64,000 bases of DNA, from NCBI GenBank assembly GCA_029204225.1, contig MU832236.1, positions 1 through 64,000 of the forward strand. The letters are read 5' to 3'. Under the pieces are notes generated by a model that was given only the letters and a program-made list of their open reading frames with translations, was not told the DNA's origin and did no database searches. This DNA comes from Diphasiastrum complanatum (taxonomy: Eukaryota > Streptophyta > Lycopodiopsida > Lycopodiales > Lycopodiaceae). How positions within the stretch are numbered: the first letter of the stretch is position 1; each line of letters begins with the position of its first letter. Below, one piece after another: positions 26,339 through 48,639 of this stretch. The position numbers and the translations under genes were made by a program.

Positions 26339-26575
26339 AGGAGGAGTTTTGAAATGGAAAAATAATCCATCTTGACTTTAGGCTTGCTACAAACATTGTA
26401 CCATGCAAGTATGTTGTTCCATAAATGCAAATGCCAAGTTTGGCCTAGATAGAACTCGAGCTACATGGATATGTCATATCTAGTTTGATGTTACAACTTG
26501 CATATAGATTGTAGACTTAGAATTAGCAAAATTATGCTTGTAACATATATATTCATTTATATAATATTTTGGCAA
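26339..26575 (+). repeat. Polypurine tract and truncated 3' LTR of element G
   Basis: AGGAGGAG at 26339-26346 is followed by TTTTGAAATGG, apparently a mutated TGTGAAA LTR start. The sequence loses any LTR character near 26575, where a different minus-strand gene begins to overlap. Confidence 0.45.
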
Positions 26576-27175
26576 ATAAAAAAAAAACATTTAGAATGTA
26601 AACTAGCAATATCTTCCTCAGTATTGGCATTAGAGCCAATGAAAACATCCCTCAACATATCAATATCTACATTCAAATATTCAGTCTCTTTATCAGGAGT
26701 ATCAATCAAGAAATGACTGATATCCTTAATGGAATGTCCAGTAGTGGAGGATAAAGGGATCTTAGTATCATGAATCAAAGTATCTGACTCTACTGGGATT
26801 TGTACCAAAAGGAAAAACACAAATCCAGTCTGCGACATTTTCGATTACAAACATTACATTCACTAGAATTCTTAAATTGATCAAAAAGTCTAGTGTACAT
26901 CTTGTCTAGCCGCTGCTTATAATGAGAAAAAATATGTACAAGATCAGTGAAATGCATAAACGACAAATTAGATGCAGAGATTGGAGGGATACTGACTATA
27001 TCCCTGAATTTGATATACTGGTCATAAAAAAATCAGGACTCTATTGTACCGTACTGAACACATTTAGAAAAGGCTGAAAGAGGGACTTGAAGTACTCTAT
27101 GCACTCAGTTATACCGAACTCAGAGAGAAAATTAGACAACAAACGCTCACGACTAGGATCAGAGGAGAAAGACAT
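26557..27175 (-). pseudogene. Unknown protein with a CxxC motif, frameshifted, divergent from the H3/Ulp1-like gene
   Basis: From ATG at 27175-27173 the frame reads MSFSSDPSRERLLSNFLSEF and then crosses into a second frame that contains DQYIKFRDIVSIPPISASNL, HYKQRLDKMYTRLFDQFKN and a cysteine motif ECNVCNRKC. It crosses again into a third frame (26838-26557) with ETEYLNVDIDMLRDVF. The three open pieces are collinear and look like one protein broken by two frameshifts. I do not recognise the family. The start lies 857 bp from the divergent gene at 28032, and the intervening DNA holds the CACGTG repeat array. Confidence 0.4.
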
Positions 27176-27430
27176 TGAGTAGTATTGGATTTGTGCGAGA
27201 GGGGAGTAACCGAAGATGAAGGGAGAACATTACGCACGCACAGAAGTGATATGTACAAACGACGTATCGCTCTTTTGAAACAGGATACAATAAGAGAACA
27301 AACAAGGCGCGCACAAAAGCAATATGTGACGAAAATAGATATAAAATATGCGCGTAGAGAATCAATATGAGCAAAATCCGAGAAAGTAAAAAAAATAGGT
27401 TTTCAAAGATCGTGCCCTTTATAGTCATCT

Positions 27431-27795
27431 CACACGTGCGAGTCAATGGTCAACTGCCCACGTGTCATACGATGATTTGCTGAAAATCATCCACACGTGT
27501 GCAGTCGTACAGAATGCATGTGTCACATTCTGATTCGTTGTCGCTTGACACGTGTCATAGGATGATTCGATCAAAATATTTCACACGTGTGAACTGGTAC
27601 AAGAGGCATGTGTCACATTTTGATTTGTTGCCGCTTGACACGTGTTGTAAGATGATTCTAAAAAATATTCCACACGTGTGAAGCTATGTGTTGCATTCTG
27701 ATTGGATGGAGTGTGACACTTGTCGATGGCTGATTTGTTACTAGACACGTGCGGACGGCACGTGTGACCACACATGTGTGACTACACATGTGCAA
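27431..27795. repeat. About 90-bp tandem repeats carrying CACGTG palindromes
   Basis: CACACGTGTG occurs at 27492, 27582 and 27671, and GACACGTGT(C/T) at 27547 and 27637, giving a period of 89-90 bp over about three copies. A related CCCACGTGTC lies at 27456, and further CACGTG or CACATGTG boxes run to 27795. CACGTG is the plant G-box core bound by bZIP and bHLH factors. The array sits between two divergent gene starts (27175 minus, 28032 plus), so a shared promoter role is possible but unproven. Confidence 0.75.
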
Positions 27796-28031
27796 AAAAA
27801 CCGTTTACACATGTTCACGAGCTTAGAGGCAGTTTCACTTGTTTTTTTCTAATTTTTGTACCATATCGCTTCTCTGCGAATGCTCTTTTCTCTTTTATCT
27901 CCGTCTCCTTCTATGTGCGAACAAGAGCGATATTACCGTCGTACATATCGCTTATGTGCGTGGTTAGCTTTTTGTCTCGTTGTTTTTGTTTTTCACACTG
28001 GCACAAGAGCGATACGTCCTAGACTGCTCTC

Positions 28032-29544
28032 ATGTCTAGGGTCAAACAGAAACAGAGGGATTTCTTCTCTCCTGGGGCTATATCCACAAGTACCCCTGCT
28101 GTTAATTCTCCACGGAAGACCGGGCGTAACAGGAGGAGATGGCTCTCTAAGATTAAGAAATATCAGAGATCCACCTTGCTCTTGATACCCACAGCTCTCT
28201 TCTACAGAACTATTTGTCTGATTACCCGAGATAATCTGTAGAGTGCTATCAGGTTCACACCTAGAGCATTGTAGTGTTTGCAAGAGTCCGTAGAGGACTA
28301 TTTGGCTCTTTTTTTTTAGGATTCTATTTTGCTTTCCATCCATGCCAAGTGAGTGACCATAATGCCTAAAGATTTTCAAATCCTATATAGAATGAGAGAG
28401 AGATTTTGTAGACTTCACAAGGGTGAACCCGATGTTCCCTGGAACAAACCCCTTGATAGGACCAACCTACTCTCCAAGAAGCCTCGCAAGCAACCTGCCC
28501 CCAGAAGGAGCAAGCCATCCTCTTCTAAGGCTCCCAAAAAGGTCCGACGTGTAACCCTCCAAGCTTCCACATCTGGAGGTGATGGAATTGTAAATATTGT
28601 AGCTCTTGATACTGTGGTTGATTCAACCACAAAAATTTTGGACATTCCCTCCATTGTAGATACTCTCCTGCCTCCTCCTGTTAATGTCAAACCTGTAGCA
28701 TATTTAGATTCTGATAATTATTTAAAATTTAAGAAAGATATTTCAGATGCGATAGATAGTATCGGCATGCCAATCCTCTTCCAAATAGAAGAGATTGGTC
28801 TTACTCTTAATTTTAAAATTCCATATTGTTTGCAGATGAAGGATAGAAGGGCATCTATTAGCGATCCAGTGATTGAGGCTGGTCTCCCCTGACTGCACTA
28901 TGATATAGCAAGGGATTCCATGAAAGAAGTGTCGCTTCTTAGCAATTTTTTCCTGCAAGGCATCAAGGACAACAACGACACTTTGTCACACTGTATCCTT
29001 AGTGCTTGCTCACCTACTGTGAAGTTTTTGTTGATGCCATATCATACCAAGTATGTCTATCTCTTTACTTGTCAAATTCATTACTTGTCTACTTCTTTAC
29101 TCGTAATTATTGTATCGTTTATCTAATGAAATTCTTCATGATTTTTTGCAGTGATAACTGGAGCTTTATTGTAATTTCTGTAAAAATCACAGATAATAAT
29201 ATTGTAAATCTTTTTTGTGTAAAGATGAATTTTGCCAGCAACACACATAAGGATATTGACTCACTGTTGTCGGAGATATGTAAATATTTTTCAATAGAGA
29301 ATCCCACGGCAGGGAAATGTGAAATTGTGATTATTGATCATTGAGGTAATCATTAAACATTTCTGGTGTATTTTTGTTTATCATCATTGTTAAGCATTAG
29401 TACCTTCATCCCATTATTAATCAATTGAATGTATTGCAGAAACTCCAACAAAATGACTCATATAGTTGTGCGTGGTATACTCTATACAATGCAAAGTTAT
29501 TTTTCCAGTGGTACAATCTTCAGGAGGATGTTGATATTTCAAAA
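28032..29544 (+). pseudogene. Histone H3-like (CENH3-like) sequence in frame with a Ulp1/C48 protease-like domain
   Basis: From ATG 28032 one frame reads MSRVKQ (H3 N-terminus), a basic tail, KYQRSTLLLIP (H3 helix alpha-N/alpha-1), RALxCLQESVEDYL (alpha-2) and SIHAKxVTIMPKDFQ (loop 2/alpha-3). LLIP and EDYL favour a CENH3-like variant. Four in-frame stops occur (28239, 28272, 28317, 28350) without a frameshift. The same frame continues through a Lys/Arg-rich linker (about 28470-28560), a TGA at 28890 and a region ending PYHT-NDNWSFIVIS across an intron (29051-29151). After a second intron (29346-29439) comes LQQNDSYSCAWY, matching the Ulp1 catalytic-Cys block. The expected HW is NW, so the catalytic His is gone. 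A 1-nt shift is needed at the last join. Ulp1 proteases remove SUMO, and plant transposons often carry Ulp1-like domains. Confidence 0.7.
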
Positions 29545-30045
29545 GTGAGTTATTAGCCCTTTCTATTTTATCTTTATGTTAACTATTGTTTGTTATTAAT
29601 ATTCATCTAATACAATGTTTATTGCAGTTTGTCCTAGGTGATTATACTGTTGGCAAAGTGTACATAAGTGTACATATTTCGACAGGAGATCATTCTTAGT
29701 CTATTGGCCAGGTCAACTGCTGGACCAAAGATTGATGTTGGGCCATCTAAGGCAGACGATGTTCAGATTTTAAATGAGACTGGGCAAATTGTAAATACTT
29801 AAGCTGAATAGATAGACTTATAAACATATAGAAATAGAATTATAGAGATATAGACATACAGAAACAAAATCATTTGAACAAATGTACAAATTCCCCAAAT
29901 TCGGGTGATCTTTTATTGAATACATATACCAATTTGTACAATTGATTGTACTTTTTCGTATCTGCATGAAAGATAAGCAATTTGTTAATTTCTCTATTCT
30001 CTAATAAAGGTACATATATGATCATTGACTGATTTACAAATCAGA
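29545..30045. other. 3' flank between convergent genes
   Basis: A possible further exon lies after an acceptor near 29629 (reading FVLGDYTVGKVYISVHIS), followed by A/T-rich sequence. The 3' ends of the plus-strand gene at 28032 and the minus-strand gene at 31270 meet here. I see no other feature. Confidence 0.35.
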
Positions 30046-31270
30046 TTAAAATCTTACGAGCTTTCCATTGATAATGAATGTGAAATATTCTAGTAGAATT
30101 TCATTGTCCATTAAGACCAACTCTTGTCTAATATAACTCAAGCTCCAATGATCCTCCACTATAATTGTAGTTAGCATATCTTCATTGTTGAAAATGTGGA
30201 CTTTTTTTCGATCTGTGTGATCATCCATTTAAAGGTCTTGATTGAGTGGCATCCATGTCTCACTTATTCGTTTCCATCTCTGGTAACTAAATGTAAGACT
30301 AAGCATTTGTCTTGCAATGCAATAACGAAATATCATAGATGATTTCTTAATTCTACATTCAATATCTCCAACCGCCTTGCATTCCCAACCCACATCCATC
30401 AGATCTGAAAGAGTGTCATCTGGCACATCCTTACGAACAAATAATGTTGGTGTTCTATGAACATTTGCATTTGAAAAAAAATAATCTACAAATACAGATA
30501 AGGATAGAAACCAACTTAATCTATTGACTTTTGATCCAGTGCTAGCTTTGATTGAGTTTTTCAAATATAATAGTAATTTGCATCTAAAAGATTCTGACAC
30601 CATACTATCAGGTGCAAGCCATTCATCACTTCCAAAATGTGGCAGTGGTATATCTTCAAGCTTTCCAAAACCTCCATGCATATCTGGAATATACTTGGAC
30701 TCATAGAAAAATATACCACTATCTACAAGCTCCTTAGAAGTTTTTCCTCTGTATTGTAATTTTCCAATATTCGAATGAACTTCACATCCAATATACCTGC
30801 TAGGGATTGTGTTGGCTCCCATTCGCATATCCTGGATGGATATAAATCTACAAGAATGCAATACATATATGATAACTGATATGATTTCAACAAGTTTCAA
30901 AAGCATGAATGTTATAATATAGATCCCAATTTTTTTTAAACTTATAGTTACATTTTTGGCGATCATGAATATCAAAATCTTGTAGATATAGCTCCGAATG
31001 CATATAGACATGTTGAACCAAGACTTCTGAGATTGATTGCCCTCCTGGAGAAGTCCTAAAATCAAGGATCTTTGCTTTCTAATATGATTTGAATGTCATC
31101 TTTGCTTTCTTTTTTGGTCTAAACATGCCTTTTGAGAATGGATGCAGCAGAACCCATGAGTTTTTGATATATCTTGTTGGTTTCCAAAATCCGGCATCAT
31201 CCTTCTCATTGTGAAGAATCATTGATTCAATTTTAGATCTTGGTCTCCTGGCCATATCGATTGCTTCCAA
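30046..31270 (-). pseudogene. Unknown intron-containing protein with in-frame stops
   Basis: Exon 1 (31270-30952) reads MARRPRSKIESMILHNEKDD, meets an in-frame TAG at 31081-31079 and continues KAKILDFRTSPGGQSISEVL to a GTAACT donor. After an intron of about 104 bp, exon 2 (from 30847) reads FISIQDMRMGANTIPSRYIG and PDMHGGFGKLEDIPLPHFGS, ending at TAA 30231-30229. The same frame then continues with MDDHTDRKKVHIFNNEDML to 30046. The join needs a one-base adjustment. I recognise no domain. The block is convergent with the H3/Ulp1-like gene and has the same pattern of in-frame stops with few frameshifts, so the two may belong to one element. Confidence 0.45.
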
Positions 31271-31785
31271 AGTTTAGCGCCAAATTCTCAAATATATGAA
31301 ATGCCAAATCGACTCAATGCTATATGATACTTATTCAATGTGAATGGATAACTGGACCACAGTAACAACATGTGGTAACTATGCTTATTGTCTAACTGTG
31401 ATGCATGTCACCAGTTCCTATGCATGTGATGACTTACTGTTGGCAAACCTATGTAGTTTGAAATTTATGAACATATTAACCAATGTGGTTAAATAATTAA
31501 CTAGAGACAATGTCGTTGTGGGCAGATTCACACATTCGGGACAGACACTATCCACCAATAGCATATTCCCATCCTGCCCGGCGGCAAACTCAAAAATTTT
31601 AAAAGTTAATTTTTATAACTTTATTATTTCTATCTACGTTACGTAGATTTCAAATATATGCAATTTCATTGGGCTACATGGCGGACAAAACTAAGAAAAA
31701 AAAATTAAAAGCATATTTAGGAAGGGTCTTTTTTTATTTTAAAAATCCTCTTATGGCTACACACAACATGACTACGACATAGTCA
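31271..31785. other. Intergenic sequence, nothing recognised
   Basis: This is A/T-rich and contains no supported gene or repeat. The right edge leads into copia integrase sequence near 31790. Confidence 0.4.
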
Positions 31786-45550: not shown

Positions 45551-46781
45551 GGATTCTCAAACTAAAGCCAGTCTTATCGTAGACAATCTGAATGGATCCA
45601 ATTATCATTTATGAAAATTTAAGATGAAGACCTTGCTAATCTCCAATGAGTTGTGGGATGTTGTTACACGTATCGAAGTGAAACCTGAAGATGATACAGA
45701 AGACTCAAAATGAAAATCAAAGGATGGTAAAGCTTTCGCGATTATTATCCTCAATATCAGATACTCAAGCTAAGTTTTTGGAAGAAGTCTGGGACATCCT
45801 GAACTCACTATGTGATGTGAGTGACGTAACTAATAAGTTACATCTTTGAAGGAAATTATTCAGACTCAAGATTTCAAATAATGATTCTCTTCAGAATCAT
45901 ATTAGCCAGTTTAAGAATCTCTTGAAACAGATGGCCGTTGTTGGATCAGTCATACATGATCAAGACACAATTATGACATTGCTTTCAAGCCTATCCTCTA
46001 CATATAAGAACTGAGTGATGATCATCATAACACACTCAAATTTATCTCTTACTAGAGTTATCACTATGTTGCTACAAGAAGATAATCGAAGAAGTCAAGT
46101 CACTTCGTCTACCTCTTTATCTCATGCTCTATATGTCAACAAGGGCTCAAAACGACAAAAGCAGAAAAGCTCCAAGCAGTCTACATCAAATCAGAAACAG
46201 ACTCAAAATCAAGAACAATCATCAAATCCACGTTCGTCGAAGAAGAAGCTTTTTTGCAGGTATTGCAACCACAATAACCATGAGATCTAGGATTGCCGAA
46301 TTCTCAAAGCGAAGAATGCAGCCAAGAAAACTGACCAACAAGCAAATACAGTTACAGCATCCCCTGAAGTCAAAATGGATGACGGTGCTTTTATGGTCAA
46401 CGACAAATATTCGAATTCGATGATTCATGGTTTCTAGATTCTGGAGCTATTCAACATATGACCAATCATTGTGAGATTTTCCAATCCTATACGCCTTACA
46501 GCACAAAGAAGTATGTTCATCTTGGTGATGATAGTACTCACACTATCGAAGGTGGAGGTATTGTAAGATTAAGATTCCAGCATGGTCAATTCAAACTATT
46601 GTCAAAAGTCTTGTATGTTTCTAAACTCTCTATAAATGTGTTATCAATAAGTAGAATTATAGATTTAGGTCATAAGGTGGAGTTTGAGTCTGATCAATGT
46701 AGAATTATCAATAGGAGTAATAAGATCCTTGCACTCGACAAGAGACATGGATACTTATATAGATTGGCACGTTGTGTTTGA
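45551..46781 (+). pseudogene. Copia element I: gag and protease remnant
   Basis: Gag starts MDSQTKASLIVDNLNGSNYH at 45551 and parallels element J (LLISNELWDVV, GKAFAIIILNI), with stops and frameshifts. A knuckle-like region (FCRYCNHNNHEI) lies near 46250. Protease is well kept in a frame to 46781: DSWFLDSGAIQHMTNH (about 46420), KYVHLGDDSTHTIEGGG and VLYVSKLSINVLSISRIIDL. Everything downstream of protease is absent; an unrelated gene begins at about 46790. Confidence 0.85.
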
Positions 46782-46789
46782 TGGTGGAC

Positions 46790-48430
46790 ATTCAAATTTT
46801 TTTAGATAAGACTATAATTCAAGGTGCTTGTGATTTTGTAAGTATTAGCATGGAAGCATATGCAACAATATTTAAACTAATTAGAGAAGCTTTTCAGCAA
46901 GTTCAAATTAGAAAAGTCCCAATCCCTAGGACACATCACTTGAAAAAAGAGAGAGATACATTAAACATAGGTTTGCATAAGATCACTGGAACTCCATTTC
47001 ATATTGAGGAGGTGTATGAAACTGATGGAAGATCGATATCCTATTATTCATCAAACAACTTATTTGTTGATCTAAATTACTTGCTGAGATACATCCTCAC
47101 ATTCTATGATATAGCCTTTTAAAAGGTGAATGACAAAATAGTCATAGTACTTAAGTTAGATGAGTCAGAAATTGTGAAAGGGCTAAAGATGGAGAGAGTT
47201 AGTATAACTCTCATGAATGGTGCACTATCACAAACAGAGGACCAAGAAGATTTCAGATTCAGTGTCCAGTCAGAAAATGATATATGGTGGTTGGCAGCGT
47301 TTCAAGTAACTAGCTTCATTATTACATCACATTAATTGAATAGTATTAATTCTTTGTCAACTAAGTTTGATTAATTCTTTGGATAGGTGCTGAAGGAGGA
47401 TCATGATATATTATCATGGATATTCTCAAGGACATCTTATCCTAGGATCATCAAGGACCATATGGATGGAGGACTTCTCAATATTCCAGGAGTTGGAGAC
47501 TTCAATGTTGAATGGCACTTAGCAGGCGATTTGAAAACATTGAAATGTATGTATAATGTCTCTCAAGGTGCTACATCAAAACACCCTTGTTTGTACTGCA
47601 TGAAAATGGAAAAAGATGTTACTAGGAGTACAGGAATTACTAGAGAATATGCGGATCCAAACTGGTAGCCTGTGCTACCTATCCCCTTGAAAAATGTGCA
47701 TGTTTGCACTCTTCATGCAGAAGTTAGATTAATAGAAAAGATCATTTATCTTCATATAGTTTCTGCTTGGAATACTAAGCTAGCATCATCAACAAAAGAA
47801 GCTATCTCTCGATTAGAAGATGTTTTATCAAAAGCAGGACTTCATAAGAGACATGTCAAAATTCAAAAAGATGAAAAGCTTTCAGATTAGAATGGGAATA
47901 TGCCAACTAAGCCAAGCATAGGAGGAGCAAAAGCGTCTCTATCAAATCATACTGGTAAGGCTTCTAATATTCAACACTCAATCTCTGGACACATATTATT
48001 GCTACCACTCAGGATTTCGAGAAAGACGGCAAAACTAGAATACTAAAGTTGATGTATGGAAGAAGATTGATAGTATGATTGCTATTTAAAAAAAAAGATA
48101 AATACTATGATATTGATAAGAAAGCCATACAAAGGACTTGTGTTGAGTTTGTTAATGTAGTATCAAAATCATGGGGAGAAAATCACATCACTCATTACAT
48201 GGTTAGTATAAATTCTTTAAGTTGCTTTCAATTTTTCATATATATTTAGATCCAAACATAAGATTGACATTATGGTTTTGACATCTGCAACACATACTAA
48301 GAGATCATACAACATTTTTTGCAAACACGTATGGAAGCTTGAGTGTCTGGTCATCAAAGGGGATGGAGAAGTCACATTGGCAAGCACGAGCAGCATTTCA
48401 TCAAAATACACAACATGGAGGAACCAATGA
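46790..48430 (+). pseudogene. Uncharacterised transposase-like protein with an intron
   Basis: The first part (46790-47305) reads ACDFVSISMEAYATIFKLIR and RVSITLMNGALSQTEDQEDF, ending NDIWWLAAFQ at a GTAACT donor. After an 81-bp intron (47306-47386) the frame continues VLKEDHDILSWIF, NVEWHLAGDLKTLKCMYNVS and a cysteine pair HPCLYCMK. Later pieces include TKEAISRLEDVLSKAGLHKR and, near 48375, EKSHWQARAAFHQNTQHGG. Acidic/His residues followed by CxxC and a final HGG-type motif recall transposase-like proteins, but I cannot name a family. Stops near 47120, 47668 and 47888 show it is degraded. Confidence 0.5.
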
Positions 48431-48639
48431 AAAATAAAACTACATTTGTCAATGTTTCAGTGGTTCTACCGCAGAGTTTAGATTCGACATATAACAAAGT
48501 CCACACAATACAACAAGTTTAGAAAAGCATGCAAGTTCATACAGGGAGATAAAATTAGATGATTGATGAGTAGAAGATAAAAAGACATTCAATCATCATG
48601 GTCATCAAATCATGACATGTTCAGAATTGCTTGCAAATT

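Follow-up and report, generated by a model that had tools for sequence, protein, structure and literature searches.

A decayed histone H3-Ulp1 fusion gene and the probable multi-gene DNA transposon that carries it

Why should a histone H3-like sequence lie in one reading frame with a Ulp1/SUMO-protease-like domain, and was such a protein ever encoded by a single gene? The question is raised by a stretch of 64,000 nucleotides (here called the window) on the contig labelled C718, for which an initial annotation had described a CENH3-like sequence running into a protease, either as an ancestral fusion or as an H3 pseudogene in frame by chance. It was pursued in one 1.74-Gb assembly of one eukaryote. 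The four peptide blocks named at the outset (MSRVKQ, KYQRSTLLLIP, CLQESVEDYL and IHAKxVTIMPKDFQ) indeed all lie in order in the frame at 28032-29053, which contains five stops (residues 70, 81, 96, 107 and 287). With X placed at the stops, residues 24-121 matched the Pfam family Histone with an E-value of 3.2e-17 and 63.4 bits (cut-off 26.4), and this histone H3 domain occupies 28101..28394 of the plus strand. Exon 1 of the H3-Ulp1 gene, recognized by Pfam and tblastn at 28032..29050 (plus strand), consists of an H3-like tail, the H3 core, a basic linker and the start of the Ulp1 part, and includes all five in-frame stops. The frame runs into the basic linker and then into intron 1 (donor 29051, acceptor ending at 29151), and the claimed phase consistency holds: both position and phase of this intron are the same as in two intact copies of the gene (L013 and L022).

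The remaining exons also lie on the plus strand. Exon 2 (29152..29345, from tblastn and sequence) carries the Ulp1 His block, in which the catalytic His has been lost (DNW for DHW), and exon 3 (29440..29544, from tblastn and sequence) carries the Cys block QQNDSYSC with its Cys retained. Exon 4 (29628..29802), encoding the C-terminal tail, was placed by alignment with exon 4 of L013, its ends being read from the sequence. In tblastn the later exons matched the intact Ulp1 part with E-values of 2e-8 and 8e-17, and a Pfam search with exon 2 alone gave no match. Counted from the sequence, exon 2 is 194 nt long in the window copy, compared with 187 nt in L013 and L022, and this difference breaks the frame ahead of the Cys block, which lies behind the second intron in exon 3. 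Because of its five stops, its longer, frame-breaking exon 2 and the change of His to Asn in the HW block, the window copy is a dead copy of a genuine fusion gene.

Intact genes of this kind do exist in the same genome. The entire predicted H3-Ulp1 gene is open in both L013 and L022, without stops or frameshifts: it has four exons with GT-AG introns and a coding length of 1413 nt for 470 amino acids, the splicing being predicted from conserved GT-AG sites only. Both proteins exceed the Pfam cut-offs for Histone (E-values of 1.0e-27 and 8.7e-27; 97.3 bits for L013, cut-off 26.4) and for Peptidase_C48 (1.1e-10 and 5.4e-10; 42.2 and 39.9 bits, cut-off 20.7). The Pfam check and the search for intact two-domain copies proposed with the initial annotation thus gave a histone match above the cut-off in the window and two intact copies with both domains elsewhere; neither a lack of histone matches nor an occurrence of the two parts as separate genes only was seen, although one family of elements (family B, below) has the H3 domain without Ulp1. 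Of 16 fetched regions, six (L012, L013, L020, L021, L022 and L024) contained a sequence closely related to the window frame (E-value below 1e-105) with a stop-free exon 1. L024 and L012 keep the exon layout apart from indels or a truncated last exon; part of exon 3 is missing in L020, and exons 2-4 are missing in L021. A genome search with the 470-residue protein yielded 14,624 first-look candidates; among the 90 exon-1 rows scored, some of which look like one copy on two contigs, 18 were stop-free and 72 had stops (counted by eye), and among the matches listed those of exon 2 and exon 4 fall at many of the same places as exon 1.

The H3-Ulp1 fusion is therefore real. An H3 pseudogene that landed by chance upstream of a Ulp1 gene in the window would account for the five stops of the window copy taken alone, but the E-values, the intact fused copies and the recurrence of the fused exon at many places exclude a chance fusion, and we consider that explanation next to impossible. 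A search of the genome with the Pfam Histone model gave 6325 first-look candidates, of which 150 were scored, every listed row lying above the cut-off. The top 13 rows reached 164-165 bits, and the eight that were translated are canonical H3. From the lower-scoring places 36 were fetched (16 and 20): 34 proved to be diverged, transposon-type H3-like domains, and two (L049 and L050) are host H3.3 genes. By eye, H3.1 and H3.3 of the host resemble those of land plants. No host CENH3 gene was found among the H3 matches examined (150 of the 6325 candidates scored).

The fusion gene belongs to a larger unit. Joined with their left neighbours (L025 and L026), L013 and L022 give full elements of 8681 and 9305 bp, which are bounded by inverted repeats CATTAGAGGAGTTCTCAATATCAAAAAGACCC..., starting with CATTAG; the two repeats match perfectly over 35 bp in the L013 copy and at 29 of 36 positions in the L022 copy. 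Four predicted genes follow one another in these elements, which we call family A: T (plus strand), R (minus), H3-Ulp1 (plus) and U (minus). Ends of this family, allowing up to three mismatches, occur 1177 + 1240 = 2417 times in the genome, with none for the reversed control; counted by side, there were 1185 left and 779 right ends.

Sixteen pairs of flanks (11 of family A and five of family B) were compared, with one duplicate pair left out, as was the L010 pair of B ends because of its imperfect right end. Two of the 16 share 3 bp (0.34 pairs expected by chance, P 0.04) and the rest share 0-2 bp; matching flanks of 8 bp were not found in any of the 16. When the flanks of the L022 element were joined, all 40 scored copies of the surrounding repeat aligned without net gap, 31 of them across all 100 bases; four of these copies, re-read without gaps, agreed at 98-99 of 100 bases, with 98 of 100 for L077-L079. 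The insertion of the L022 element neither added nor removed a base. A consistent target-site duplication was thus not found in the 16 flank pairs or at the one resolved empty site (0 bp, L022), and a short duplication is possible in some insertions, 3-bp sharing being slightly above chance.

Parts of this unit are recognized around the window gene. A decayed gene U lies downstream (30055..31255, minus strand; tblastn against the gene of subfamily A1, 63-86% identity, E-value 9e-134), followed by the right terminal inverted repeat (31721..31755, minus strand), in which 26 of 35 bases are those of the A1 end. Upstream is an N-terminal fragment of gene R (26539..27175, minus strand), found by tblastn with the R protein of the L013 copy (46-56% identity, E-value 2e-47). 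This fragment adjoins sequence that is of copia type by eye; we could not find the remainder of gene R within the window, or the left part of the element in place beyond about 26,540. Between the divergent R and H3-Ulp1 genes is a spacer (27200..28031, no strand assigned), presumably a two-way promoter, within whose approximately 833 bp fall nine of the 30 CACGTG motifs (G-boxes) of the window; judged from their sequence, these motifs may tie the genes of the element to host bZIP/bHLH factors. A separate fragment of a related element at 46778..48458 (plus strand) contains part of the putative transposase gene T (tblastn, 68-88% identity, E-value 0.0); at the DNA level it is about 90% identical to the left-hand portion of the element in L013. 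It sits inside sequence that, by eye, also has a copia-type look.

Gene T, a putative transposase by its place in the element, has the pattern LDE...GDLKT...C-x-x-C...GMEK, which resembles that of DDE enzymes by eye. Pfam returned no match above any cut-off for T and none above cut-off for R, and U had no match above cut-off in Pfam or the PDB. T had no match in the PDB and chance-level matches only in PHROGs. Its pattern matched 28 times in viral contigs and 47 times in GTDB contigs, two sets that may leave out the genome of the window, and none of these matches was confirmed as a relative. A BAH domain was considered for U, but Pfam gave no BAH match for three U sequences even at an E-value of 10, and a PDB profile search gave a single chance-level match (E-value 0.64) to an unrelated protein; the single-sequence structure prediction for part of the window gene U had a mean pLDDT of 42.1, which is very low confidence. 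Assignment to CACTA/EnSpm was rejected: T has no Pfam match above cut-off to Transposase_21 or any other family, hhalign of T against four CACTA sequences of the same genome gave a probability of 0.08% (the profiles are shallow, and a distant tie is possible), and the 3-bp duplication expected of such elements was seen in only two of the 16 flank pairs, with 0 bp at the resolved empty site. Assignment to hAT was likewise unsupported: T has no Pfam match above cut-off and the 16 flank pairs include no 8-bp duplication.

Related H3-bearing elements fall into several types. Subfamily A2 (L023 3323-4318; L080-L083) has a start of the MART-S/T type, an H3 core (Histone E-value 2.7e-26; 61.5% identity to A1) and a long linker; 147 of 8291 candidates were scored in the genome search for it. 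Ulp1 exons follow downstream on the same strand in three of the four loci L080-L083, the lowest E-values against the Ulp1 part of A1 being 7e-10 in L081, 7e-10 in L082 and 2.5e-9 in L083, although L081 and L082 look like a single copy held twice. No Ulp1 sequence adjoins the A2 exon of the copy in L023/L080; the Ulp1 matches in L023 belong to a copy like that of the window (type W). In family B (L009-L011 and L014-L019), the H3 core stands at the C-terminus of a long, proline-rich, low-complexity protein, which in one copy begins with MARTKQTAR. The ends of this family (CATTAGGGCCC...) occur 979 + 971 = 1950 times in the genome, with none for the control, and no Ulp1 match was found in any of its nine loci (8-10 kb stretches, not all of which hold a whole element). 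Further H3 types are represented by C (L054) and D (L037). In all, H3 was found in types A1, A1b, A2, W, B, C and D, with 41-63% identity between the more distant ones compared, and Ulp1 turned up in A1, A2 and W but in none of the B loci.

The other genes are shared as well. Between A and B, T is 44-45% identical, with a common QGMEKSH tail at 42-49%; R is 31-32% identical over its C-terminal part, and U is 33% identical. As T, R, U and the H3 domain are common to A and B, this set of genes, H3 included, is old. The H3 domain is thus a lasting part of this group of elements and not random cargo. With a probability of roughly 0.6, we take the window to hold the decayed remains of a multi-gene DNA transposon with an H3-Ulp1 gene, H3 being a lasting part of it. 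The earlier suggestion that the ancestor encoded an H3-fold protein with a Ulp1-type protease on a mobile element agrees with L013 and L022, which are intact with both domains, and with the same arrangement in A2.

Transposons often pick up pieces of genes, and an H3 gene and Ulp1 exons might simply have been transduced and copied without use. Capture of H3 genes by hAT elements is known in fungi, according to the available portions of two reports (PMC3538342, PMC6710886). Selection was compared between A1 (L013 and L022) and A1b (L020, L048 and L040). The H3 core gave dN/dS values of 0.07-0.18 (Fisher p 6e-6 to 8e-11; six comparisons sharing sequences). For the linker the values were 0.42-0.61 (p 0.016-0.18). 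The Ulp1 N-part, compared for L020 only, gave 0.55 (p 0.33) and 0.64 (p 0.40); the L048 row was dropped, its 29 codons being those left where a 1-kb locus is truncated. Pooled pN/pS over six A1/A1b exon-1 copies was 0.27 for the core, 0.73 for the linker, 0.79 for the Ulp1 N-part and 0.50 for the tail. In A2 the core gave 0.25-0.42 (p 0.0004-0.034); of the three comparisons of the Ulp1 N-part, one gave 0.34 (p 0.014) and the others 0.51 and 0.84. Strong purifying selection on the H3 core between subfamilies is well supported; for the protease part such selection is not clear. The nearly unconstrained Ulp1 N-part in A1, the weakly constrained linker and the stops in 72 of the 90 exon-1 rows are what unused cargo would show. 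However, the constraint on the core across subfamilies, the retention of H3 in all seven types and the genes common to A and B speak against passive capture, which we consider quite unlikely. Between L013 (3976-4968) and L020 (3529-4539), dS is 0.46 in the H3 core and 0.07 in the Ulp1 N-part; the copies are therefore mosaics, and the H3 segment seems, from these values, to have been swapped between subfamilies.

Two other explanations give the H3 part a different task: mimicry of the centromeric CENH3, by which the element would be steered to centromeres or would exploit them, and service within the transposition complex as a module for DNA binding or dimerisation, which Ulp1 would process or release. 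All solved-structure matches listed for L013 (60 of 176) and L009 (60 of 180) are named H3 or histone-domain proteins, and the single-sequence structure prediction of the window H3 had a mean pLDDT of 41.9, again of very low confidence. Residues 49, 63, 64, 69, 83, 110, 113, 116, 118, 122, 123 and 126 we take to be contacts with H3', H4 or DNA. The H3 letter stands at 69, 83, 113, 118 and 123 in all ten transposon (TE) rows, at 116 in the nine readable rows, at 122 in nine of ten and at 126 in eight of ten. Position 110 is kept in three of ten and is Leu in all six A and W rows; Arg49 is kept in one of ten, and Arg63 and Lys64 in none (64 is Arg in nine). That most of the checked H3-H4 interface positions are kept argues for true nucleosome partners and against a mere module of the transposition complex. 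Such a module would suit the association of H3 with T, R and U in A and B, as well as the position of H3 in B, where it closes a long low-complexity protein; we regard it as unlikely.

The case for CENH3 mimicry was examined with reference cores of CENH3 from Arabidopsis, rice and maize, of yeast Cse4 and of a generic plant H3.1; the H3.1 row differs from the true host H3 by one core residue in L001-L003 (A for L, position 90) and additionally by K for R at 53 in L004-L008. Identity of the TE cores is 44-55% with plant H3.1 and 42-52% with the three plant CENH3s. At the seven sites where these three agree against H3, the TE rows have the CENH3 state at 3-5 and the H3 state at 1-2, whereas in a wider set of 19 sites the two states are about equally frequent. 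Like the reference plant CENH3s, most TE types have LLIP-APF, nine of ten rows have Thr85, and some types have an AR-type N-terminus. In the alignment, A1, A1b and W exceed H3 by one residue in loop 1, as does the rice CENH3 (those of Arabidopsis and maize exceed it by two); in A2, B, C and D, however, the loop has the H3 length. Across the types the TE loop is 0-2 residues shorter than those of the three CENH3s. In a tree of 16 rows, the TE H3s lie with plant CENH3 opposite H3 and Cse4 (support 88/89, not firm), yet they also form a group of their own (88/80, not firm). TE H3 differs further from plant CENH3 in being fused to Ulp1 in A and in ending a low-complexity protein in B, and the elements are placed along whole chromosomes, among the matches listed (first hundred each). 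A CENH3 ancestry of the TE H3 is possible from these sequence features, and centromeric mimicry is very unlikely; the original CENH3-like label therefore finds weak support in the seven-site comparison, which neither the wider site set nor the tree placement strengthens.

Under the preferred reading, a multi-gene transposon whose H3 is a lasting part, the H3-Ulp1 protein would pair with H4 and enter or bind nucleosomes, either where the element lies or at its target. The tethered protease would then strip SUMO from silencing or chromatin factors there, and this removal would help expression of the element by countering silencing, or its insertion by opening sites. We propose this mechanism tentatively and from sequence, the odds on the chain as a whole being clearly below even. 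In the Ulp1 part of L013, His, Gln and Cys align with those of yeast Ulp1. To the eye, both A1 and A2 seem to have Asn at the position of the catalytic Asp, which is weakly aligned, so protease activity, though plausible, is uncertain. That the elements represent an undescribed superfamily with terminal inverted repeats and no target-site duplication, which has an old H3 variant of its own, fused in some lineages to a SUMO protease, and which could thereby mark or remodel its chromatin or lift its silencing, is a proposal whose chances stand only somewhat below even.

Plant transposons of the MULE and CACTA types carry Ulp1/Peptidase_C48 genes, and to our knowledge these proteases are not joined to a histone. 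The present elements are likewise plant DNA transposons with a Ulp1-type protease, and they differ from CACTA in that their putative transposase has no match to Transposase_21. H3 cargo is known from fungal elements. In Pyrenophora tritici-repentis, a hAT transposon carries a histone H3-like gene, H3L (PMC3538342); as far as the available portion of that paper describes it, this too is a DNA transposon with terminal inverted repeats that has its own H3-like ORF beside the transposase and exists in tens of copies. However, the fungal element has a hAT transposase, a separate gene unfused to a protease and recent, near-identical copies, whereas the present H3 core shares only about half of its residues with host H3 and occurs in several diverged subfamilies. 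A hAT element of Pseudocercospora fijiensis has transduplicated H3 (PMC6710886). It is likewise a DNA transposon that amplifies H3, intron-free and in hundreds of copies, but all transposon copies there are inactivated by RIP, and the accessible part of the report mentions no fusion.

Two other known systems share single features with the elements described here. Fungal DNA transposons encode TET/JBP dioxygenases (PMC12730594), which, in the excerpts at hand, are likewise chromatin-modifying cargo thought to aid escape from silencing, though the enzyme acts in DNA demethylation and is not a histone. Spy transposons, which are PHIS members, also lack a target-site duplication, but prefer AAATTT according to the consulted sections of PMC4482050; no such preference was seen in the three bases on each side of the 16 insertions. 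Among the results listed, a literature search limited to open-licence papers found no H3-protease fusion and no plant transposon carrying a histone. In short, transposon-borne histones are already known from fungi, while the H3-Ulp1 architecture in a very abundant group of plant transposons appears to be new and the superfamily is possibly new.

Ordinarily it is the host's histones that package selfish DNA and keep it silent. If the preferred reading is true, these elements are a direct case of a transposon group that makes parts of chromatin, with its own diverged H3 under selection and in some members joined to a deSUMOylase-like domain. They would then offer a natural system in which to ask if histone variants can be turned against silencing, as well as a source of new H3 variants open to experiment.

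Some minor observations concern the distribution of the element ends. On contig C1 the right ends without mismatch are clustered, 13 of 46 lying at 64.9-66.7 Mb and 22 of 46 at 95-100 Mb, and the same two zones contain two and none of the 23 left ends. These clusters are probably an amplified right-end fragment and were not counted as evidence of targeting. On contig C3 two copies of the element, about 50 kb apart at 57.59-57.65 Mb, have identical 12-bp flanks and near-equal lengths, with further element ends up to 57.93 Mb; the pair is a segmental duplication carrying the element. In the L013 element, the spacer corresponding to that between R and H3-Ulp1 in the window contains ACACGTGTC five times, counting either strand.
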